IMG/VR virus record: IMGVR_UViG_3300036879_000022
Span: 1-64,000 of that record
Reading direction: 5' to 3' (one strand)
DNA from: a virus
DNA length: 64,000 bases
The position numbers were made by a program, and so were the translations under genes. Of this stretch, positions 7,374-63,359 are shown piece by piece (the first letter of the stretch is position 1; each line of letters opens with the position of its first letter). The notes under the pieces are model-generated. The model had not been told where the DNA came from. It saw only the letters and a program-made list of their open reading frames with translations, and did not search any database.

Positions 7374-7449
7374 TGGCTCAGGGAGTAGGGCTCGAACCTA
7401 CGACCTACGCTTTAACAGAGCGCCGCTCTACCATCTGAGCTATCCCCAA
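7374..7449 (-). tRNA. tRNA-Asn (GTT)
   Basis: 76 nt with encoded CCA. Acceptor TTGGGGA/TCCCTGA (two G-U pairs), D arm GCTC/GAGC, anticodon stem GCGCT/AGCGT around CTGTTAA, T arm GTAGG-TTCGAGC-CCTAC. Confidence 0.92.
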
Positions 7450-7455
7450 AAACCA

Positions 7456-7530
7456 TGGTGCCCGTGGCTGGTATCGAACCAGCGACCTGACGGTTATCAA
7501 CCGCCCGCTCTACCACTGAGCTACACGGGG
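7456..7530 (-). tRNA. tRNA-Ile (GAT)
   Basis: 75 nt, CCA encoded. Anticodon loop TTGATAA in a GGCGG/CCGTC stem, T arm GCTGG-TTCGATA-CCAGC. The first acceptor pair is a C-C mismatch; otherwise canonical. Confidence 0.9.
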
Positions 7531-7568
7531 CATTCGCACTAGCAAGCGGTCGCGCGCTTGCACTAATT

Positions 7569-7645
7569 TGGTGGACCGGGTCGGCTTCGAACCGACGACC
7601 CCCTGCTTGCAAAACAGGCGCTCTCCCAACTGAGCTACGCGGCCC
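7569..7645 (-). tRNA. tRNA-Ala (TGC)
   Basis: 77 nt, CCA encoded. Anticodon loop TTTGCAA in CCTGT/GCAGG, T arm GTCGG-TTCGAAG-CCGAC. The acceptor pairs as GGGCCGC/CCGGTCC (G3-U70 present, last pair mismatched) and there is one extra base before the D stem. Confidence 0.85.
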
Positions 7646-7646
7646 G

Positions 7647-7678
7647 CTGTCCCGAATTTGTATACAAATTTGGGACAG
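7647..7678. repeat. 32-bp near-perfect palindrome between two tRNAs
   Basis: ctgtcccg/aatttgtatacaaatt/tgggacag: 16-base arms with a single mismatch (7654/7671) and no loop. Lies exactly in the 40-base spacer between tRNA-Ala and tRNA-Met. May be an RNase-processing hairpin in the precursor or a dyad site for a DNA-binding protein. Confidence 0.8.
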
Positions 7679-7685
7679 AAACTTT

Positions 7686-7763
7686 TGGTGACGGACGCTT
7701 GGATTTGAACCAAGGACCCTCGGGTTATGAGCCCGACGCTCTACCGGGCTGAGCTACGCCGTC
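7686..7763 (-). tRNA. tRNA with CAT anticodon (Met, or Ile2 if lysidine-modified)
   Basis: 78 nt, CCA encoded. Anticodon loop CTCATAA in TCGGG/CCCGA, T arm CTTGG-TTCAAAT-CCAAG. One extra base in the 3' acceptor strand. No initiator-type C1-A72 mismatch, so elongator-like. Confidence 0.85.
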
Positions 7764-7764
7764 A

Positions 7765-7840
7765 TGGTGCGAAGAGATGGGGTTGAACCACCGACGCGCA
7801 CGCTTTCAACGTGCCGCTCTACCAACTGAGCTATCTTCGC
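7765..7840 (-). tRNA. tRNA-Phe (GAA)
   Basis: 76 nt, CCA encoded, perfect acceptor GCGAAGA/TCTTCGC, loop TTGAAAG in GCACG/CGTGC. Only one base separates it from the tRNA downstream. Confidence 0.92.
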
Positions 7841-7855
7841 GAAATCTAAAAGCCG

Positions 7856-7933
7856 TGGTGCCGCTGGAATGGATTTGAACCTTCGACCTACCCCTTACGA
7901 AAGGATTGCTCTACCGGGCTGAGCTACAGCGAC
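7856..7933 (-). tRNA. tRNA-Thr (CGT)
   Basis: 78 nt, CCA encoded, acceptor GTCGCTG/CAGCGGC, loop TTCGTAA in ATCCT/GGGGT. The T stem pairs only if one A is bulged out. Confidence 0.85.
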
Positions 7934-7934
7934 A

Positions 7935-8008
7935 TGGCACGGGCTCTAGGATTTGAACCTAGACTGACGGGTTCAGAGCCCGTTGGGCTACCGTTACACC
8001 AAACCCGC
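7935..8008 (-). tRNA. tRNA-Gln (CTG)
   Basis: 74 nt, CCA encoded, acceptor GCGGGTT/AGCCCGT, loop CTCTGAA in ACGGG/CCCGT, T arm CTAGG-TTCAAAT-CCTAG; one base from each neighbour. Confidence 0.9.
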
Positions 8009-8009
8009 A

Positions 8010-8083
8010 TGGCACAGGATCAAGGTTTCGAACCTTGGCCAGCGGTTTTGGAGACCGCCGTGCTACCGCTACACCAATCCTGT
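8010..8083 (-). tRNA. tRNA-Trp (CCA)
   Basis: 74 nt, CCA end encoded, perfect acceptor ACAGGAT/ATCCTGT, loop CTCCAAA in GCGGT/ACCGC, T arm CAAGG-TTCGAAA-CCTTG. Confidence 0.93.
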
Positions 8084-8142
8084 AAAGATCAGGACCAGCT
8101 TTGCGATTGCGCGGCGGCGATAATAGTCGATGTGGGATTATT

Positions 8143-8220
8143 GGTCAGGGCGGCAGGATTTGAACCTGCGTTCTTCTGGGTCCGGGCCAGACGGGGACAG
8201 CCAAACTCCCCCACGCCCTG
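8143..8220 (-). tRNA. tRNA-Pro (CGG) with C33
   Basis: 78 nt, CCA encoded, perfect acceptor CAGGGCG/CGCCCTG. Anticodon loop CCCGGAC in TCTGG/CCAGA reads CGG but has C instead of the near-universal U at position 33. T arm GCAGG-TTCAAAT-CCTGC. Confidence 0.85.
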
Positions 8221-11300: not shown

Positions 11301-11663
11301 TCAGTGGCTCCCCCACGTCTGGCCGCCGTCGTGCGAGTGCACGCCCTGCGCGAGAGCCTGCTTGTTGACCGTGCGGCCCGCCATGGCCTCGGCCTGCGCG
11401 AGCTTCGCCTTGGTCAGCGACGATCCGGAAACCATCAACCGACGATAGATGCATGCATCGGTCGCGCCGTCGCGAATGGTGTCGTCGAGACCGTCGAAGG
11501 CGACGGCGCCGGTCCGCTTGTCCACGATCGGCTTGACTTTGCCGGCCGCAATCAAGCTGTTCACGTCCGTCACGGTGCGCCGGATTTCTTCGGCGCGCTC
11601 GGAGATCGTCTGGCGACGTTTCAAATTCCTGTAGTTCTCTTTCAGTCTCGTGTCGCAGGGCAT
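11301..11663 (-). CDS. Uncharacterised 120-residue protein of the AAA-module regulon
   Basis: Helical N-terminal half (ISERAEEIRRTVTDVNSLIAAG), then VDKRTGAVAFDGLDDTIRDG. Preceded by the leader cagcacataggaacagca shared with the next two upstream genes, and by promoter TTGACG-N18-TACAAA. No family recognised. Confidence 0.7.
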   Translation of the reverse strand: MPCDTRLKENYRNLKRRQTISERAEEIRRTVTDVNSLIAAGKVKPIVDKRTGAVAFDGLDDTIRDGATDACIYRRLMVSGSSLTKAKLAQAEAMAGRTVNKQALAQGVHSHDGGQTWGSH

Positions 11664-11741
11664 GTGCTGTTCCTATGTGCTGTAGGAGTTTGTAGCGGAG
11701 CCCGAGGCGACCCGTCAAGAGCCGCCTCGGATAATGGTTAA
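11664..11741 (-). promoter_or_regulatory. Promoter of the AAA-module type, for 11301-11663
   Basis: Minus strand: TTAACCATTA box (11741-11732), TTGACG (11718-11713), TACAAA (11694-11689), then the shared leader with aggaa. The box starts 23 bases before the -35, as in three sister promoters. A 7-bp ccgaggc/gcctcgg hairpin lies over the -35 area. Confidence 0.6.
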
Positions 11742-12556
11742 GCAAGCATGTCCTCCAAGTCGAGATCGATCGGCGCCGGGGCCGGGACCTCGCCCAGAAG
11801 TTCGGCGAGCGGCTCCAGATCGAGCACGCGGGCCGAGGTATCCACCGGGGCCTGCACTTCGGTCGCGCCGTCGAGATCAAGGAACGCGGTGCGGGACGAC
11901 GCCAGCGCGGCGAGGGTCGCTTCGTCGATCACGATCGCCGCCTGCTCGCCAGCCGTGACGGCCTTCGCGATCTTGCGGGCGACGGCGCGAGCCACTTCAA
12001 TGGCCCCTTCGAGGCTCTTCTGGCCGTCCGAGGACAGCATGGTGCCGAGCTTCTTGGCTTTGTTCGCGGCGGTGCGGACAGCGTCCACGTCGAGCGACTT
12101 GATGCCGGTCTCCATGGTCTCCAGCAAGCCGTTAAGCTCGTTCTTGATCGCGCGAACCGCCTGCACGTCATCGGCCGCAATGCGCCCGGTGATGACGAAG
12201 AAATCGATCTCGGTCAGCCGCGCCGTGAGGTTGAACTCCGTGCAGAGGTCCTGAGCAGTCTTGACGGCGGCCTCCAGATCGGCCTCGCGCGTATCCGGGC
12301 AGAGATAACCGAAGTCCGACTTCGCGCAGATACCCGTGATCAGGCTGCGCGCCTTCGAGCGAACCTTAGTGGCTTGCTCAAACTCGGCGGCATCAGCGAC
12401 GGACTTGTCCGTCTGCCACGAGCTGACGAGCACGCCGAACTCGTCAACGTGTTCGGCTTCGATCTCGGTCTTGTTGTACTCGACATTGTCGCCCGTGATC
12501 TTCGTGCTCAGGCCGACGAGCAATCCGGGGCGGAGGGTCTTTGAAGCGAGAGACAT
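11738..12556 (-). CDS. Uncharacterised 272-residue partner-candidate of the AAA+ ATPase
   Basis: N-terminus MSLASKTLRPGLLVGLSTKITG is beta-rich; the middle is long helices (KTAQDLCTEFNLTARLTEID, AIKNELNGLLETMETG) and the C-terminus is acidic and Leu/Pro-rich (ELLGEVPAPAPIDLDLEDML). No membrane segment or known enzyme motif. It shares promoter design and a 20-base leader with the AAA+ gene just upstream, so the two are probably made together and may form a complex (inference). Confidence 0.7.
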   Translation of the reverse strand: MSLASKTLRPGLLVGLSTKITGDNVEYNKTEIEAEHVDEFGVLVSSWQTDKSVADAAEFEQATKVRSKARSLITGICAKSDFGYLCPDTREADLEAAVKTAQDLCTEFNLTARLTEIDFFVITGRIAADDVQAVRAIKNELNGLLETMETGIKSLDVDAVRTAANKAKKLGTMLSSDGQKSLEGAIEVARAVARKIAKAVTAGEQAAIVIDEATLAALASSRTAFLDLDGATEVQAPVDTSARVLDLEPLAELLGEVPAPAPIDLDLEDMLA

Positions 12557-12654
12557 TTGCTGTTCCTATGTGCTGTAGGGCCGGGCCATCCCGGCTGCAA
12601 ACTTTCTAATCCTGTCCCGGAGAAGACGCAAGAGCCTTCTCCGGGGATGGTTAA
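12557..12654 (-). promoter_or_regulatory. Promoter of the AAA-module type, for 11738-12556
   Basis: TTAACCATCC box (12654-12645), TTGCGT (12631-12626), 17-base spacer, TAGAAA (12608-12603), then the shared cagcacataggaacagcaa leader. A 10-bp cccggagaag/cttctccggg hairpin spans the box-to-spacer region and may also end the upstream transcript. Confidence 0.65.
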
Positions 12655-14301
12655 TCAGAGGTCAAGCTGGCGGCCACCCGTGACCACTTCCAGCTTCGTC
12701 GCGCTGGTAGCCGGCCGGGCGTTCGCCTGACCCCACTTGCGCAGCTCGGCGACCTTGTCGGCCTTGGTCTTGGCCAGCGGCACGACGCGATCGGCAGCGT
12801 TGAGCAAGTCCTTAGTGTTGATCTCGCGGACACCGTCCGCGAAACCGGCGTAGAGGGCGGTCGCTACCAGCTCGGCAACTTCCGAACCGGTGAAGTCCGC
12901 AGTGGCCTCGGCGACGGCGCCGAAGTCAATCTTGATCTTGTCGCGGCCGTTGGCCTTGAGCGCGGCCTTGAGCACGCCCTTGCGCTCGACCGTGTTCGGG
13001 AGGTCAACGAAGAACACTTCGTCGAAGCGGCCCTTGCGGAGCAGTTCCGGCGGCAGCGATGATACATCGTTCGCCGTCGCGATCACGAAAGCACCGGCCG
13101 GATGATCCTGCATCCATGACAGGATCGTGCCGAGCGCGTCAGCGGAGACACCGCCGTCCGCAGAGCCACCGTTCGTCGCGCCCTGCATTGCCTTCTCAAT
13201 TTCGTCGATCCACACGACACACCGGCCAATGGCTTCGATGACCTTGAGGGCCTTGCGGAGGTTGCCTTCGCTACCACCGACGAACTTGTCCTTGAGCGCC
13301 CCAAGGTCGAGCCTCAGAAGCGGGATGCCCCATGCCGTGGCAACCGCCTTGGCAGTGAGCGACTTACCGCAACCTGACATGCCAGTCAGCACAACACCCT
13401 TCGGCGCCGGCAGACCATATTCGCGAGCCGCCGGGCTGTACGCTTCCGTGCGGGCATTCAGCCACTCCTTGACGTTGTCGAGCCCGCCAACCGCGTCGAG
13501 CCCGCCCTTGATCGGGTCATGCCATTCAAGCACGCGCTCGCGGGCGATGACACGCTTCTTTTCGTTCGACACGAGCTGCGGGTCGATCGTGCGCGTCTGC
13601 ACAAGCGACTTGGCGAAGCACGAGGCAGCCTCGTCTGCCGTCAAGCCGACAGCGGCGTCGATCGCGGTCTCACGCGTCTCCGGCGTTGTCGCGAGTGAGC
13701 GGATCGGCTTGCCCTTAATGTCTTCGCCGGTTTCCTTGTCCTTTTCGAACTCAGGCAGCGAGTTGATCGCAGTGGTCAGCACCTTTTCGATTTCCGAGCG
13801 GTCCGGGAGCGGCCATTCGAGGACCGTTGCGTGGCCGGCGAGATCGGCCGGAATGTTGCCTTCCGTGGTCAGGATGATAATCGCCTGCGCCGCCTTGCGG
13901 TCAACGCCCGGGAGATGCTTGGCGAGATTGCGGAGCTGACGCATCGGGGTCGCACCCGGCTGGCCTTCAAGCCATTTCGGAAGGTCGCGCATGACCCAGA
14001 CCTGACGAACGCCCTTGGTGGCGCCCTGATCGGCAGCAGTGCGGATCGCGGTCAACGTATCGCCGCAGTCGTTACCGCCGACGCCCTTGACCGGGTCGCC
14101 GTTGATCATGGTGACACCCTGCTCTACGTCCCAAAACAGGGTCTTGTAGCCTGCGGCGGCAGCGGCTTCAACGAGGAAACCTTCGACGCGAGCTTCCTCG
14201 CGGGTGACAATCCAGAGCAGCGAGTTGCGGGCGCGCAAAAGCGAGGCAACGTCAGCAGCGGCAGTCTGGCCTTTCGAGATCGTGGTCTTGGTCGCGGTCA
14301 T
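12655..14301 (-). CDS. Ycf46-like AAA+ ATPase
   Basis: 548 residues. N-terminal ~250 residues resemble the Ycf46 regulatory domain (SLLWIVTREEARVEGFLVEA). AAA core: Walker A GMSGCGKS (307-314), Walker B VVWIDE (362-367), sensor-1 IATAND (407-412), second-region Arg in LRKGRFDE (421-428), then a helical lid and an unusual basic tail. Family members are ring-forming remodelling ATPases of unknown substrate. Large phages often carry one, but its role is undescribed. Sits in a four-gene group with common promoters. Confidence 0.85.
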   Translation of the reverse strand: MTATKTTISKGQTAAADVASLLRARNSLLWIVTREEARVEGFLVEAAAAAGYKTLFWDVEQGVTMINGDPVKGVGGNDCGDTLTAIRTAADQGATKGVRQVWVMRDLPKWLEGQPGATPMRQLRNLAKHLPGVDRKAAQAIIILTTEGNIPADLAGHATVLEWPLPDRSEIEKVLTTAINSLPEFEKDKETGEDIKGKPIRSLATTPETRETAIDAAVGLTADEAASCFAKSLVQTRTIDPQLVSNEKKRVIARERVLEWHDPIKGGLDAVGGLDNVKEWLNARTEAYSPAAREYGLPAPKGVVLTGMSGCGKSLTAKAVATAWGIPLLRLDLGALKDKFVGGSEGNLRKALKVIEAIGRCVVWIDEIEKAMQGATNGGSADGGVSADALGTILSWMQDHPAGAFVIATANDVSSLPPELLRKGRFDEVFFVDLPNTVERKGVLKAALKANGRDKIKIDFGAVAEATADFTGSEVAELVATALYAGFADGVREINTKDLLNAADRVVPLAKTKADKVAELRKWGQANARPATSATKLEVVTGGRQLDL

Positions 14302-14876: not shown

Positions 14877-15071
14877 CTAGCTGTTGTTCCTTTCGCCCTG
14901 CGCGGACCATACCGCGTCAAGGGCTCGATAGAGGCGTGCCGTCGCGGTCTTGGTGCGGCGGTGCGCGAGCTGAGCCTGAGCTTCGAGAAGCTCGATGCGC
15001 GCCGTCTCCAAACGCTGAGGTAAGTCAATGAAGGGAGACGGCGGGAGAAGTGCGAAGGTCCCGTGCATCAC
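14877..15071 (-). CDS. Uncharacterised 64-residue helical protein
   Basis: Four-base overlap with the upstream stop. Long helix RLETARIELLEAQAQLAHRR of coiled-coil character. No family recognised. Confidence 0.6.
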   Translation of the reverse strand: MMHGTFALLPPSPFIDLPQRLETARIELLEAQAQLAHRRTKTATARLYRALDAVWSAQGERNNS

Positions 15072-15745
15072 ACGCGCTCGGTGGAGTGCGCTTCCATGTG
15101 AAGCTTGGCATGCCGAGCGCCGTAGAGCGCAGCTTCCGGCGACGCATAGCCGATCGGACCGTGGGGGTTGTGCACGGTGCGCCAGATCGTGCCGTTGTCG
15201 CTGACCTGACGGAACTCGCCGTAATAGGTCTTGTGACCGTCATAGGGCTTCGCCGGGATCGCGCGCAGGCCGTCGTACTCCTTGCCGATGAAGGTCAAGG
15301 CGCCAGCCGGCGTCGGACCACCGAGGAAGGCTTCCTTGGCCTGCCCGTAGCCGAGTTCGGGGCGGCCGTGAGCAGCCGCGTCGTCATTGAGCTTCTGCCA
15401 GAACTTCGGGAACGGCGGCTCCGCGTCGATCGCAGAGTGGATGCCTTCCATGCCCGAGTGACGCGGGGCCGGGCGGGGGTTGAGGACGCTTTCGAGGGCC
15501 GCGTCGATGAAGAGGTCGGCGAGAATGCCGGCGACGATGGCTTCGCCCTTGCTCGCGTTCTGTACGCGAGCGTGGGAGGAAGAACCATCCCAGCCGCGCT
15601 CCGCCTGCTCGCGCTTGTCGGCCATGTTGCTCTCGAAGGGGCGGTTCACGTCCGGGCTTTCCGTGTGCCGGCCGACGCCGAACATTTCGCTCGAACGATG
15701 ATGGGGGGTCTCGTTGGCTTCGATGATTTCAGAAATTCCACGCAT
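15068..15745 (-). CDS. Uncharacterised 225-residue protein of the AAA-module regulon
   Basis: No known motif. Polar N-terminus, a helical hydrophobic stretch (GEAIVAGILADLFIDAALES) and a C-terminal half rich in aromatics and Gly (YYGEFRQVSDNGTIWRTVHN). The promoter upstream is of the same type as those of the AAA+ genes. Confidence 0.65.
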   Translation of the reverse strand: MRGISEIIEANETPHHRSSEMFGVGRHTESPDVNRPFESNMADKREQAERGWDGSSSHARVQNASKGEAIVAGILADLFIDAALESVLNPRPAPRHSGMEGIHSAIDAEPPFPKFWQKLNDDAAAHGRPELGYGQAKEAFLGGPTPAGALTFIGKEYDGLRAIPAKPYDGHKTYYGEFRQVSDNGTIWRTVHNPHGPIGYASPEAALYGARHAKLHMEAHSTERV

Positions 15746-15792: not shown

Positions 15793-15844
15793 AAGCTAGG
15801 CGCGATCCATAAACGGGTCAAGAGCGAAGTTGGTGGATGGTTAA
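15793..15844 (-). promoter_or_regulatory. Promoter of the AAA-module type, for 15068-15745
   Basis: TTAACCATCC box (15844-15835), TTGACC (15821-15816), 17-base spacer, TAGCTT (15798-15793). The box-to--35 distance is again exactly 23 bases. Confidence 0.65.
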
Positions 15845-15848
15845 TGGA

Positions 15849-16094
15849 TCATATCTCGACGGTCTCGGTATCCCACGAGGAAGTTCGATAATCGTCGTTC
15901 TCCATGAGATCGGCAGTGCCGACCGCGACCGCTACCAAATTATCGTGCGACACATAGAGCGCGGCTCGGGCTGCACGAAGGACCAACGTCGTCGGCACAT
16001 TGTTTGCGTCAAGCATCTGAATGACCGGCCGCCATTCGCCAGCGTAGAACATCCGGTACTTCGTTTTCGGCGGGGGGTTGCGCCAATCACTCAT
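15849..16094 (-). CDS. Uncharacterised 81-residue protein
   Basis: Beta-rich, starts MSDWRNPPPKTKYRMFY; overlaps the upstream stop by four bases. No family recognised. Confidence 0.65.
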   Translation of the reverse strand: MSDWRNPPPKTKYRMFYAGEWRPVIQMLDANNVPTTLVLRAARAALYVSHDNLVAVAVGTADLMENDDYRTSSWDTETVEI

Positions 16095-26226: not shown

Positions 26227-26859
26227 TCAGCCTCCTTGAGGGTGCCGAATGAGACAATAGACGGTGCCGACCTCGCCGCCGTGGACGGTCATGAAAACCC
26301 ATGACACGTCAGTCGGATTGTCGAGATCGTCGTCGAGCTTGTTGACGAGTTCTGGCGGAACCGGGACTTCCGTTCCATTCGGGATGGCTTGTCGTGTCGT
26401 GCCGTCCGGATACGCCTTCGCGGAGCCGTCGCCGATCTTCGCGGTCCATGTCCCGTCCGCATTACGCCAATAGTCTTCGACCGGATAGGCATCGCCCTTG
26501 CCACAACACGAGCCGGGCATGTTCGGGCGCTGAAGGCGCTCAAACCATTTCGTTGTCGCGCTGTTCGGGTTGAAGCCGTGATCCATTGCTGGAGCCGAGT
26601 GCGGCCAGAGAACCCAGAGCGCGAGGGCGAGGAAGCAAGCCCAGCCCACGAGCGAGCGCGCAGTGTTCGCGGTCGGGCTCGACGGTGCTGGCCCGTCATA
26701 GGTCTCGATCAGGCGCGCATACGGATGACCGCGATCACGTCCGTCCGGGCATCCCGGATACTCGCACGTGAAAAAGCGGTTCTTGTCGCCGTTGCAGATC
26801 GGGCAGCGATACTCCTTGCGGGGCTCCGGATACGCCGGGCCGTGTTCATCCGTGCCCAT
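26227..26859 (-). CDS. Membrane protein with N-terminal zinc ribbon
   Basis: 210 residues: YRCPICNGDKN and FTCEYPGC form a four-Cys ribbon (residues 17-37), SLVGWACFLALALWVLWP is one membrane segment (about 69-86), and the exported/other-side part holds GSCCGKGDAYPVEDYW and a beta-rich domain. Similar single-pass proteins occur in rhizobial genomes and their phages. Function unknown; the Cys pair CC could be redox-active. Confidence 0.65.
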   Translation of the reverse strand: MGTDEHGPAYPEPRKEYRCPICNGDKNRFFTCEYPGCPDGRDRGHPYARLIETYDGPAPSSPTANTARSLVGWACFLALALWVLWPHSAPAMDHGFNPNSATTKWFERLQRPNMPGSCCGKGDAYPVEDYWRNADGTWTAKIGDGSAKAYPDGTTRQAIPNGTEVPVPPELVNKLDDDLDNPTDVSWVFMTVHGGEVGTVYCLIRHPQGG

Positions 26860-27244
26860 GGGCGTCCTCGTTGATTGTGATCGGCGCCTTCTCGACGCCG
26901 CTCAGCGGCGGATTGTCCTTGAGCGAGAGCGGATCAAGGCCGCGCGCAAGACACTCTTCAACGCTGAGCCCGTCAAGCTCATGCGGGACCGGCTTGACGA
27001 CGTAGGCGCGCATCGCCGGCTGATTGGCGGTGCAGAGACCGATCTCGACAACGCCGCCCTCGTTGAGCATCTTGAGTTCGTGCTTGGTCGGCTTCCATGT
27101 GCTGATCAGCTCGACAACGTTGGCCTCGCCGAATGTTTCCGCGCGGACCTGTAGGTCACCGCACTCCCCGTCCATGGTTTTCGCATCCCAGTTCTCGGGC
27201 TTCGCGAATAGATGCGTGGCTCCACGCGTGACTGTCGGCTTCAT
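26846..27244 (-). CDS. Uncharacterised 132-residue protein
   Basis: Mixed alpha/beta, segments VVELISTWKPTKHELKMLNE and VEIGLCTANQPAMRAYVV. Overlaps neighbours at both ends. No family recognised. Confidence 0.65.
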   Translation of the reverse strand: MKPTVTRGATHLFAKPENWDAKTMDGECGDLQVRAETFGEANVVELISTWKPTKHELKMLNEGGVVEIGLCTANQPAMRAYVVKPVPHELDGLSVEECLARGLDPLSLKDNPPLSGVEKAPITINEDAHGHG

Positions 27245-36028: not shown

Positions 36029-36733
36029 ATGGTAGACGAAGTTCGCGACTGTAGCTCAATGTTAGAGCACCCCGGGTCCACTGGGGAAGATGGCGGTGCA
36101 ATTCCGACCCGGTCGCTCCATATCAAACAAATCCCCGTTGCCCAAGCCCGTGCGTTCATCAAGATGTGGCACAGTCGTTTGCCCAATTGCGATGGGCCTT
36201 TCAAGATCGCGTTTGGGGCGTTCGATCAGGGCGGCTACCTCATGGCGGCTGCACTCTGGCATAACTGCTCAGCGCGAAACCTCCCGCAAGACTGGACTGA
36301 GTTGCGGCGCATGGCTGTCGCCAGCATGTACGCGCCACCGAATACGGCGTCCATCATGATCGGCCAAATGGTCAGATGGTTCAAGAGAGAAGGCAAAGCG
36401 ACAACGCTCGTCTCTTATCAGGACCTCGGTGAAGGCGCCCCTAACTCAGTAGGGTTCGTCAAGCATACCGGCACGATCTACAAAGCAACTAATTGGACCC
36501 CGGTAGCGATCAGCCGTCCGCGTCTTCGAACCCGCACAGTAGCGGATCAAGATTGGGTCAAGAATGGTCGGAAGGTGTACCGCCGTAATGACAAAAACCT
36601 CACGCCGGAGGGGACGACCGACGCTATCGCATCCGCGAAAGTCCGTTGGCAGTACAGCTTGCGAGGCGAGAAGTTCACTGCCCTGACCCCGGAGCAGATC
36701 GAGGCCGCCCGAAGGATGAAGCCGACCAAATAG
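36029..36733 (+). CDS. XF1762/Mom-like acyltransferase-fold protein
   Basis: 234 residues from ATG 36029, but the first ~31 codons are the DNA of a tRNA-like sequence and match nothing. From about residue 32: HIKQIPVAQARAFIKMWHSR, KIAFGAFDQGGYLMAAALW, WTELRRMAVASMYAPPN, TLVSYQDLGEG and GTIYKATNWTP follow the GNAT-like phage family that includes Mom relatives. Mom modifies adenine in phage DNA; for this family member the function is not proven. No ATG/GTG/TTG lies near the conserved start, so the true start is uncertain. Confidence 0.7.
   Translation: MVDEVRDCSSMLEHPGSTGEDGGAIPTRSLHIKQIPVAQARAFIKMWHSRLPNCDGPFKIAFGAFDQGGYLMAAALWHNCSARNLPQDWTELRRMAVASMYAPPNTASIMIGQMVRWFKREGKATTLVSYQDLGEGAPNSVGFVKHTGTIYKATNWTPVAISRPRLRTRTVADQDWVKNGRKVYRRNDKNLTPEGTTDAIASAKVRWQYSLRGEKFTALTPEQIEAARRMKPTK
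36045..36120 (+). tRNA. tRNA-like sequence, probably tRNA-Gly (TCC)
   Basis: 76 nt with CCA and U73 (as glycine tRNAs have). Acceptor GCGACTG/CGGTCGC, D arm GCTC-AATGTTA-GAGC, anticodon arm CCCCG-GGTCCAC-TGGGG (TCC, but G33), T arm GGCGG-TGCAATT-CCGAC with one mismatch and one extra base. Lies in sense orientation within the start of the next gene. Confidence 0.6.
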
Positions 36734-49694: not shown

Positions 49695-50108
49695 TCAAGA
49701 GATGCGCGACCACGTGATGACGCCCTCGAAGTTGCCGAGCTGGGCGCGCTCGGCCTCGGTCAGCTCCAGCCGATCCATGATGGCATAGGGCGTCTCAGGG
49801 GCGTCCGTGGCAGCTCTCAGGTTGGCCGCAGTCGCAAGGTGGCCGGCAGCTTTTGTGGCTCTTTCGGTCTCGTACCCGGGCCGCCCGCGCCGGAGCAGAC
49901 TGAGCACGTATTTCTCATTCTTGGTTGCCAGCTCTTCCACGGTAAGAGCCCGACGCGTCGGTGGCCCGGCGTCAACAACGGCTCGCTCTGCACGGGACAA
50001 GTACATTCGGTTGACCCGGCTAGGTCGGCCATTGAAAGGCTTGGTCATGCCCTGAGCGGCGGCAATCTCGGCATACGAGCGGATGAGCGGTCGGCGAACT
50101 TGGGGCAC
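49695..50108 (-). CDS. Uncharacterised 137-residue protein, first gene left of the origin-like region
   Basis: Start is GTG 50108, preceded by aaaggatgg. PLIRSYAEIAAAQGMTKPF and RRALTVEELATKNEKYVL suggest a helix-turn-helix-like, DNA-binding protein. As the first gene behind a good promoter it may be an early regulator (inference). Confidence 0.6.
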   Translation of the reverse strand: MPQVRRPLIRSYAEIAAAQGMTKPFNGRPSRVNRMYLSRAERAVVDAGPPTRRALTVEELATKNEKYVLSLLRRGRPGYETERATKAAGHLATAANLRAATDAPETPYAIMDRLELTEAERAQLGNFEGVITWSRIS

Positions 50109-50153
50109 TTTTCCATCCTTTTTGAGGGGTCATTTTCGCGGTGTTTGATGTGC

Positions 50154-50181
50154 GTTATCACAAGGCTCGGGCCGATGTCAA
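50154..50181 (-). promoter_or_regulatory. Leftward promoter of the 38.7-50.1 kb operon
   Basis: TTGACA (50181-50176), 16-base spacer, GATAAC (50159-50154) on the minus strand. Confidence 0.75.
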
Positions 50182-50279
50182 GTTGGGCGCTCTGGGACGG
50201 CTCGCCGGGGGATTGTTCAATGGTTTCAACGTTTGTCGCTGGGCGGCTACTCAGTGACGCACACTCAGAACTCAGTGGC

Positions 50280-51140
50280 CGCTGAAAGGTTTTCCATTTG
50301 TCAAATCAACAACTTGTCTTGTATTAACTCATCCACTCATTAGGTCTCATAAACTCCAGCTATAGAAGTCCATGTATCAGCCCCTCGGAAGAGCCCTATA
50401 TATGCTGTATGTGGAAAGGCTGGTAAGGGAAATCATAACAGCACAGTAAGAGAGTGTCCGGTAAGTGCTTGATCAGTCAAGGCCTTTAGCGATGCTCAAA
50501 TCGCGACCCAACCCTCAGGGGCCTATGGCTGCGCTGCCATACTGACCATGTCAAGCACTAGTTTAGATTAACTGCCTCAATGGGCGCGTTAACCTTACCA
50601 GTTAACCTTAACTACGCGCATGCGTGGTTAACCTTAATTGTGCGCCATAATGGCACACCTTATCGCTTATTAACGTTAATAATCAACCACTTAACCCCTG
50701 TATAGGGCACCCTTAACCCTACTAATTAAGGTTAACCCTCCCCTACGCGCGAGCACACAGGGTCAGGGGGGCTGTCAACCACACTATACTACCTATTGGT
50801 ATTAACCTTAACTATTCAGGTTAACCGCAGCCTGCCTTGTAGGGTGCAGCCTATAGGCTATGTGGTATTAACCTTAACTATTAAGGTTAACGATCCCCTA
50901 CGCGCGCGCGCAGCCACATGCGATGCATTAACCTTAATAGTACACCATATCATGCAGTACAACCTGTGATCGCGTTGACCTACCAAGGTTGGTGTGGTAC
51001 CCTGCGCGCCGGGGAACTACGGGGTAGGCCCCAAATTTCGACGGATCGGCAGGATGCCTATGCCCCCTTGTGCATTCACACTTCCCCGATTTTGAGATTA
51101 AACCCGCCAGAAAAATAAAAATATCCCGGAGAAAAATTTA
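50280..51140. other. Non-coding, repeat-rich divergence region; candidate replication origin
   Basis: No gene in some 860 bases. From 50,589 to 50,937 TTAACCTTAA or its complement occurs about ten times, including TTAACCTTAA-CTA-TTAAGGTTAA (50868-50890), the same with one mismatch (50802-50824) and TTATTAACGTTAATAA (50667-50682). Three copies are followed by tacgcgc. All genes left run left, all right run right. An AT-rich iteron array at a divergence point suits an origin, a centromere-like site or a regulator hub. Confidence 0.75.
50802..50890. repeat. Two copies of a 23-bp palindrome
   Basis: TTAACCTTAA-CTA-TTCAGGTTAA (50802-50824) and TTAACCTTAA-CTA-TTAAGGTTAA (50868-50890), 66 bases apart; the second is perfect. 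Confidence 0.85.
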
Positions 51141-51143
51141 GGG

Positions 51144-51172
51144 TTGACACAATTCCGGTTTTCTACTAGACG
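51144..51172 (+). promoter_or_regulatory. Rightward promoter, possibly giving a leaderless mRNA
   Basis: TTGACA (51144-51149), 17-base spacer, TAGACG (51167-51172). The ATG at 51179 lies where transcription should start, and no ribosome-binding sequence is present. Confidence 0.8.
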
Positions 51173-51178
51173 ACAAGC

Positions 51179-51781
51179 ATGGCACTCACGTTCAAAAATG
51201 ATCCGGCTCGCACCGCCGCTCTCGCGGACAACCTGACCACGTATGTCGGGCGCCCGTGTCTCCGTTGCGAAACCGTCGAACGATATACTTCGTCCGGGGC
51301 GTGCATCACATGCACAAAAGCCCGATCGACCCAACGTGGTGGCTCCGCACTGACGCGCTACAGGCCGAGCGAAGACAGCGCACGCGGTGCCGCGCTCGCG
51401 GCTGAAGAGAAGACATACATCGGGCCGCCGTGTCGAACGTGCACAAGCACCGAACGATACACGTCGTCAGGCGGATGTGTCCACTGCACGAAGGCCGCTG
51501 TCACTCAGCGCGGCGACGGCAGGCCCCGGCGAAAGTACGAGCACCACGAGAAGCACGGGCTCAGCGTTCCGCTGCAACCGGAAGACAGCAAGTGCGAATG
51601 CTGCGGCAAACCCGCGAAGCTCGTCATCGATCACGACCATAAGCTCGAAATTCTCGGCTTCCCGGGCAGCGAAACTTTCCGAGGATGGATTTGTTACGCT
51701 TGCAATGCAGGCATTGGTCGGCTAGGGGATGACATCGCGGGAGTGCAGCGCGCTCTCGACTACCTACGGAGACCACGATGA
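51179..51781 (+). CDS. Endonuclease VII-like protein with two zinc-ribbon repeats
   Basis: 200 residues. Two ribbons, RPCLRCETVERYTSSGACIT with CTKA, and PPCRTCTSTERYTSSGGCVH with CTKA, precede an endonuclease VII/HNH core: CECCGKPAKLVIDHDHKL, RGWICYACNAGIGRLGDD. T4 endonuclease VII resolves Holliday junctions and branched DNA before packaging. First gene of the rightward operon; likely leaderless. The doubled ribbon is unusual. Confidence 0.85.
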   Translation: MALTFKNDPARTAALADNLTTYVGRPCLRCETVERYTSSGACITCTKARSTQRGGSALTRYRPSEDSARGAALAAEEKTYIGPPCRTCTSTERYTSSGGCVHCTKAAVTQRGDGRPRRKYEHHEKHGLSVPLQPEDSKCECCGKPAKLVIDHDHKLEILGFPGSETFRGWICYACNAGIGRLGDDIAGVQRALDYLRRPR

Positions 51782-63215: not shown

Positions 63216-63359
63216 GGCAAACCGATGCTTATGGTTTACGAACCGTGAAGACCCTTGCAGAATAGGCGTTAGCGAAGCGTTAACCACGGCGAGCGGTTTG
63301 ACTTGCGAGCCGCGATGGCATGCGCTACATCGGTGGGTATAAGAGATGGAGCAAAGCAA

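Follow-up and report, generated by a model that had tools for sequence, protein, structure and literature searches.

The main non-coding gap of this phage carries an array of TTAA-containing repeats which is probably an operator array for a host regulator that times phage transcription. Judged from its motifs and from comparison between phages, the binding protein is most likely CtrA, a response regulator of the host cell cycle, perhaps with a partner. CtrA is named here as the most likely factor and not as a demonstrated one; the sampling of host genomes speaks against a simple copy of host operators. In the proposed mechanism, CtrA would bind the 13-bp-spaced units and the inverted repeats, and binding beside the promoters of the gap would activate or repress them. 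Lytic expression would thereby be delayed or timed, as has been proposed for phiCbK-like phages and for phage Delta of Brevundimonas. In support of this reading, the array is present once, with no copies outside the gap, and has been kept across the lineage; the unrelated alphaproteobacterial phages which possess the element include those with published CtrA gaps (PMC9437464). The window, i.e. the whole 64,000-nucleotide stretch analysed, covers the first 64,000 bases of a virus record of 84,382 bp.

The control gap and its repeat array

The repeats occupy a gap flanked by an ORF of no known function (49695-50108, minus strand) and by an endonuclease VII-like ORF (51179-51781, plus strand). 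This gap is the most AT-rich stretch of the record, with a GC content over 600 bp of 0.46 compared to 0.606 overall. A first-pass annotation had placed the repeats at the transcription divergence, and that this gap is the principal control region there is borne out by the ORF map, the lowest-GC stretch and the presence of an equivalent gap in nine related records. The same annotation had described about ten copies of TTAACC(TTAA), in direct and inverted order, over some 350 bases. Indeed, with up to one mismatch, TTAACCTTAA gave 11 matches, every one within 50,589-50,937, compared to a mean of 0.52 and a maximum of 3 in shuffled sequences. The exact sequence is present in 7 copies in the 84,382-bp record, with zero outside the array, and the 700 bp holding the array contain 22 TTAA, against 3 in the next densest 700 bp of the record.

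Among the units, the best is an inverted repeat of 23 bp, TTAACCTTAA-NNN-TTAAGGTTAA. Both 23-bp palindromes reported initially were recovered, one perfect (50868-50890) and one with a single mismatch (50802-50824), but a third, imperfect one (50713-50735) had escaped the count. The repeated tacgcgc tracts are likewise real, TACGCGC occurring three times in the region (~50612, ~50744 and ~50899). Within the gap, the distances separating TTAA motifs show peaks at 6, 13 and 19 bp, and no pair lies 11 bp apart, which corresponds to the N7 spacing. The gap is organized as follows:

50109..51178, no strand assigned: non-coding control gap between divergent gene blocks (ORF map, lowest GC, equivalent gaps in nine related records)
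50588..50937, no strand assigned: putative TTAAC(C/G)TTAA half-operator array, about 11 units (match counts and shuffles)
50589..50611, plus strand: direct pair TTAACCTTAC-cag-TTAACCTTAA, spacing 13 bp, copies at 50589/50602 (sequence)
50628..50637, plus strand: lone TTAACCTTAA unit (mismatch-tolerant motif scan)
50670..50679, no strand assigned: self-palindromic unit TTAACGTTAA (motif scan; similar sequence in G003)
50713..50735, no strand assigned: inverted repeat 1, imperfect, TTAACCCTACTAATTAAGGTTAA (sequence)
50802..50824, no strand assigned: inverted repeat 2, 1 mismatch, TTAACCTTAACTATTCAGGTTAA (sequence)
50868..50890, no strand assigned: inverted repeat 3, perfect, TTAACCTTAA-CTA-TTAAGGTTAA (sequence; collection scans)
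50928..50937, plus strand: TTAACCTTAA unit, 47 bp upstream of the conserved promoter-like -35 (cross-phage comparison)
50975..51003, plus strand: candidate rightward promoter TTGACC-N17-TACCCT (position kept in 7 oriented gaps; simple scan not above chance)
51019..51033, plus strand: conserved block TACGGGGTAGGCCCC, downstream of the TTGACC-N17-TACCCT candidate promoter (cross-phage comparison)
51144..51172, plus strand: candidate second rightward promoter TTGACA-N17-TAGACG, behind A-tracts (sequence)

These promoters were deduced by comparison across phages, the sole approach that helped: a promoter scan of the gap did not rise above chance and a second scripted prediction was unproductive. 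In the lineage gaps, which were oriented via a conserved block, TACGGGGTAGGnCCC, a promoter-like TTGA(C/G)-N17 has its -35 located 43 bp ahead of the conserved block in five of the seven oriented gaps. Of the TTAA-S units considered, the nearest begins 37 bp before this -35 in two phages and 46-48 bp before it in the five others, distances which differ by about one helical turn. This arrangement suggests that array units may be bound on a fixed helical face beside the promoter. By inspection, TTGACA-N17-TAGG(G/C), similar to the second candidate promoter, is also found in G003, G007 and G011.

CtrA-motif boxes at promoters elsewhere in the genome

An ungapped CtrA motif, TTAACCAT, is on record (PMC6180460, PMC11527210). 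Within the lineage, it lies exactly 15 bp upstream of TTG (-35) in 22 of 65 cases, compared to a mean of 1.3 for other spacings (P ~3e-21, although such spacing probabilities treat related sequences as independent and so overstate the significance). The count is 4 of 7 in the present record and 19 of 58 in three unrelated contigs; the concentration on one spacing across unrelated phages is independent of this kinship caveat. The TTG is followed by N16-18 and then mostly by a TANNNT-like -10. Upstream of the box, the best TTAA match of a half-site falls at exactly 11 bp, i.e. N7, with a score of 2.36 out of 4 compared to ~0.4-0.8 outside 10-12 bp. As expected of a CtrA-regulated gap, the CtrA motif is therefore found at promoters of the same genome, as TTAACCAT-N15-TTG with an N7 half-site.

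The first-pass annotation had also noted TTAACC in boxes of the AAA module, and these proved to be TTAACCAT at 11734, 12647 and 15837, three of the 6 in the window (0.37 expected), a sequence which recurs in promoter modules. In contrast, the GTTAAC it had linked to the primase-helicase promoter (33603) is non-specific, ten single copies occurring outside the array where chance predicts 4.7 in the whole window. The minus-strand modules at 15844, 12654 and 11741 precede ORFs which start 78-99 bp from the box. All four modules below come from motif and spacing analysis:

15793..15855, minus strand: predicted promoter module TTAACCAT-N15-TTGACC-N17-TAGCTT, upstream of ORF 15068-15745
12603..12665, minus strand: predicted promoter module TTAACCAT-N15-TTGCGT-N17-TAGAAA, upstream of ORF 11738-12556
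11689..11752, minus strand: predicted promoter module TTAACCAT-N15-TTGACG-N18-TACAAA, upstream of ORF 11301-11663
63269..63331, plus strand: promoter-like module TTAACCAC-N15-TTGCGA-N17-TACATC

In published CtrA-activated promoters of Caulobacter and Rhodobacter, the CtrA site lies near or overlaps the -35 (PMC6180460, PMC11264516). The modules described here similarly place a CtrA motif, TTAACCAT, at sigma-70-type promoters; unlike in these hosts, which also use TTAA-N7-TTAA, 15 bp separate the end of the box from the -35 downstream of it.

Distribution of the array among phages and bacteria

The lineage was defined by IMG/VR contigs found via the polymerase and the primase; most records in the comparison come from metagenomes and may not be complete. 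One contig, G002, is identical to this record over most of their overlap. Nine lineage records (G003, G006, G007, G010, G011, G012, G015, G017 and G021) each show, in the equivalent gap, a single dense cluster of TTAA, and the 13-bp spacing is strong and far beyond shuffles in eight of them, G015 being degenerate. TTAA-N7-TTAA, the hallmark of CtrA-regulated gaps, is absent from the gaps of 10 lineage records, including that of the window. In three members lacking the array (G005, G013 and G016), the AT-skew minimum lies at or near the contig end, so that their gap is probably missing and they are not taken as counter-examples. In a distant relative, G020, the gap is by inspection similar to the one in Delta, the Brevundimonas phage. 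Among named phages, the nearest relative is RDJL3, a phage of Roseobacter (TerL 61%, polymerase 38%, primase 32%), in which the array is absent within the 50 kb examined, and a nucleotide search of named phages with the window returned no match. The window belongs to a tailed phage, the host of which is probably an Alphaproteobacterium.

Several other features of the window deserve mention. Nine tRNA genes form one minus-strand cluster (7374-8220), and a predicted tenth, tRNA-Gly (36045-36120), lies inside ORF 36029-36733 and may be a false call. The AAA ATPase (12655-14301) is 47% identical over its length to homologues from Mycobacterium phages (Dylan, Catdawg), in contrast to the terminase and the polymerase, which are closest to those of proteobacterial phages. 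A 132-aa protein of no known function (26846-27244) is common to Sphingomonas phage vB_StuS_MMDA13 and Delta (phmmer E ~1e-8).

The viral collection contains 12 contigs with the exact inverted repeat, and an 84,980-genome collection none. A search with a 30-bp consensus retrieved named phages; the best ~30, which clearly differ in phage genome size, have Erythrobacter, Sphingomonas, Sphingobium, Brevundimonas or Caulobacter as hosts; the 13-bp spacing and the TTAA-SS-TTAA core were upheld by shuffles in most of the regions tested. In three phage contigs without detected protein relation to this lineage (G018, G019 and G022), 40 of 42 inverted repeats are intergenic and located upstream of genes. 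Phage contigs L049, L051 and L066 hold arrays of small genes, many of which come with a separate module made up of inverted repeat, TTAACCAT and promoter. G024 (L069), considered as a further array carrier, was rejected, its single isolated inverted repeat being taken as chance.

The closest described systems are those reported by Mascolo et al. 2022 (PMC9437464), who found gaps in Delta and other phages to be dense in CtrA sites of the form TTAA-N7-TTAA. CtrA binding to such gaps was shown by EMSA and reporter effects were seen, CtrA repressing DELTA_120 and activating phiCbK and Cp1R7A-A1 genes (PMC9437464). As in Delta, divergent gene blocks of the window are separated by a single gap of ~1 kb that is densely filled with TTAA half-sites; unlike in Delta, the gap of the window lineage has no N7 pair and contains only the 13-bp-spaced and inverted-repeat form, of which no mention was found in PMC9437464. 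In our own count, the Delta gap contains 30 TTAA, 6 N7 pairs (the 12 half-sites of the paper) and 7 pairs at 13 bp, so both geometries coexist in it. In vB_StuS_MMDA13 (PMC7472734), a 1186-bp AT-rich gap also separates opposite gene arms and holds repeats containing CGTTAACCAT and one inverted repeat, but it differs from that of the window by having fewer units and one N7 pair.

In bacterial genomes, the inverted repeat with up to 2 mismatches was found in 9 of 385 Alphaproteobacteria versus 9 of 369 Gammaproteobacteria, i.e. no class-wide excess, and in 1 of 40 Caulobacteraceae, the same as the control. A relaxed genome scan gave 24 matches, 14 of them alphaproteobacterial, and most of these 14 represent one homologous promoter. 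A TTAA exactly N7 away accompanies 12 of the 14, which are not independent, versus 0 of the 10 others. In a Hyphomicrobiales clade the sites are located upstream of an outer-membrane protein gene; those of Asticcacaulis and Emcibacter lie close to flagellar genes. The inverted repeat with its N7-spaced TTAA was seen upstream of the outer-membrane protein gene in the Hyphomicrobiales genomes L141, L142, L146, L151, L161 and L164, this promoter lying mostly beside a phosphoglucosamine-mutase-like ORF. In Brucella, CtrA has been reported to bind upstream of omp25 (PMC10538546). A host-copied operator, suggested by the 14 of 24 relaxed matches, was not retained, being weakened by the one-promoter homology and by the lack of a class-wide excess.

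The binding protein and alternative functions of the gap

No Trans_reg_C protein was detected in 11 array-type records, and phmmer revealed no small DNA-binding protein common to G000, R22L, MMDA13 and Delta (the last three in part). A host factor is therefore favoured. These results also make it unlikely that the array is bound by a phage-encoded regulator exchanged among alphaproteobacterial phages, and the promoter boxes fit the published CtrA motif and N7 spacing. Such a regulator would account for an element that is nearly absent from bacterial genomes yet present in unrelated phages, and many phage proteins are without known family. Far less probable still is that the array is a decoy titrating CtrA off host targets as the phage genome multiplies. 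With ~22 half-sites per genome in 700 bp, in a multi-site form not used by hosts, titration would be conceivable, but the units lie at fixed distances from conserved promoter-like sequence and isolated boxes are found at other promoters.

The first-pass annotation had proposed an origin of replication, and it is improbable that the gap is (also) one in which the TTAACC units are iterons for a phage initiator such as the Prim-Pol/DUF5906 primase-helicase. One-unit repeats in an AT-rich region are indeed present, and, as in the iteron origins of phages and plasmids, these are short and both direct and inverted. There is a single such gap per genome, in a conserved place, and the Prim-Pol/DUF5906 protein is kept in nearly all lineage records (28% in G020). 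The Caulobacter chromosomal origin also carries CtrA sites. Similar gaps hold additional phage-specific direct repeats, for example in G011, in G017 and, as five copies, in R22L. In R22L (L181, an Erythrobacter phage; 7536-8140), a TTAACC array is accompanied, apart from it, by five GTCGTCACAGAGGGG copies ~24 bp apart, which are a better iteron-origin candidate than the TTAACC units.

Unlike iteron origins, however, the gap has no adjacent initiator gene, its two flanks being the ORF of no known function and the endonuclease VII-like ORF, nor any DnaA box even when 1 mismatch is allowed, and elsewhere the element is tied to promoters, the inverted repeat preceding many separate genes in G018, G019 and G022. 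The cumulative A-T skew has its minimum at or near the array in nearly all records, but the skew tracks gene strand: a plus-strand block to the left of the array (33.7-37.9 kb) has an AT skew of +0.122, like the right arm, which indicates that AT skew marks transcription and not replication. No strand-composition switch independent of gene strand was found, and the GC-skew switch anticipated at the array did not appear, GC skew being flat with a cumulative minimum at 55.4 kb, 4.6 kb off. The proteins put forward as binders (24244, 36872 and 49695) are not conserved in array phages: 49695 was found only in G006, 24244 weakly in two records, and 36872 in none at the listing threshold. Collectively, the repeats upstream of genes in three contigs, the strand-following skew and the lack of DnaA boxes do not support iterons, while an origin function in the same gap, alongside operators, is possible.

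Control by CtrA thus remains the preferred reading, against which stand an inverted repeat that is not in general use by host genomes, a gap without canonical TTAA-N7-TTAA, a gap promoter scan no better than chance, promoter boxes set 15 bp away from the -35 and not near it as in the published host promoters, and the absence of the array from the part of RDJL3 considered. Tentatively, and with some doubt, the 23-bp inverted repeat, in which TTAA-S2-TTAA units stand 13 bp apart, might represent a second operator geometry, read by the cell-cycle regulator or else by some unnamed host factor, acquired by unrelated alphaproteobacterial phages and largely avoided by host chromosomes. The phage would then read the host cell-cycle state otherwise than host promoters do, and might also use this gap to gate its own replication.

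If the CtrA reading is right, a large uncultured phage lineage would join the few phages known to read the host cell cycle via CtrA. A search for TTAA-N7-TTAA gaps is blind to this lineage, so CtrA control may be more frequent among phages than the published survey suggests. With its fixed spacing, TTAACCAT-N15-TTG would provide a simple genome signature for such phages and a guess of alphaproteobacterial hosts, and the reading of non-canonical spacing by CtrA would become directly testable.
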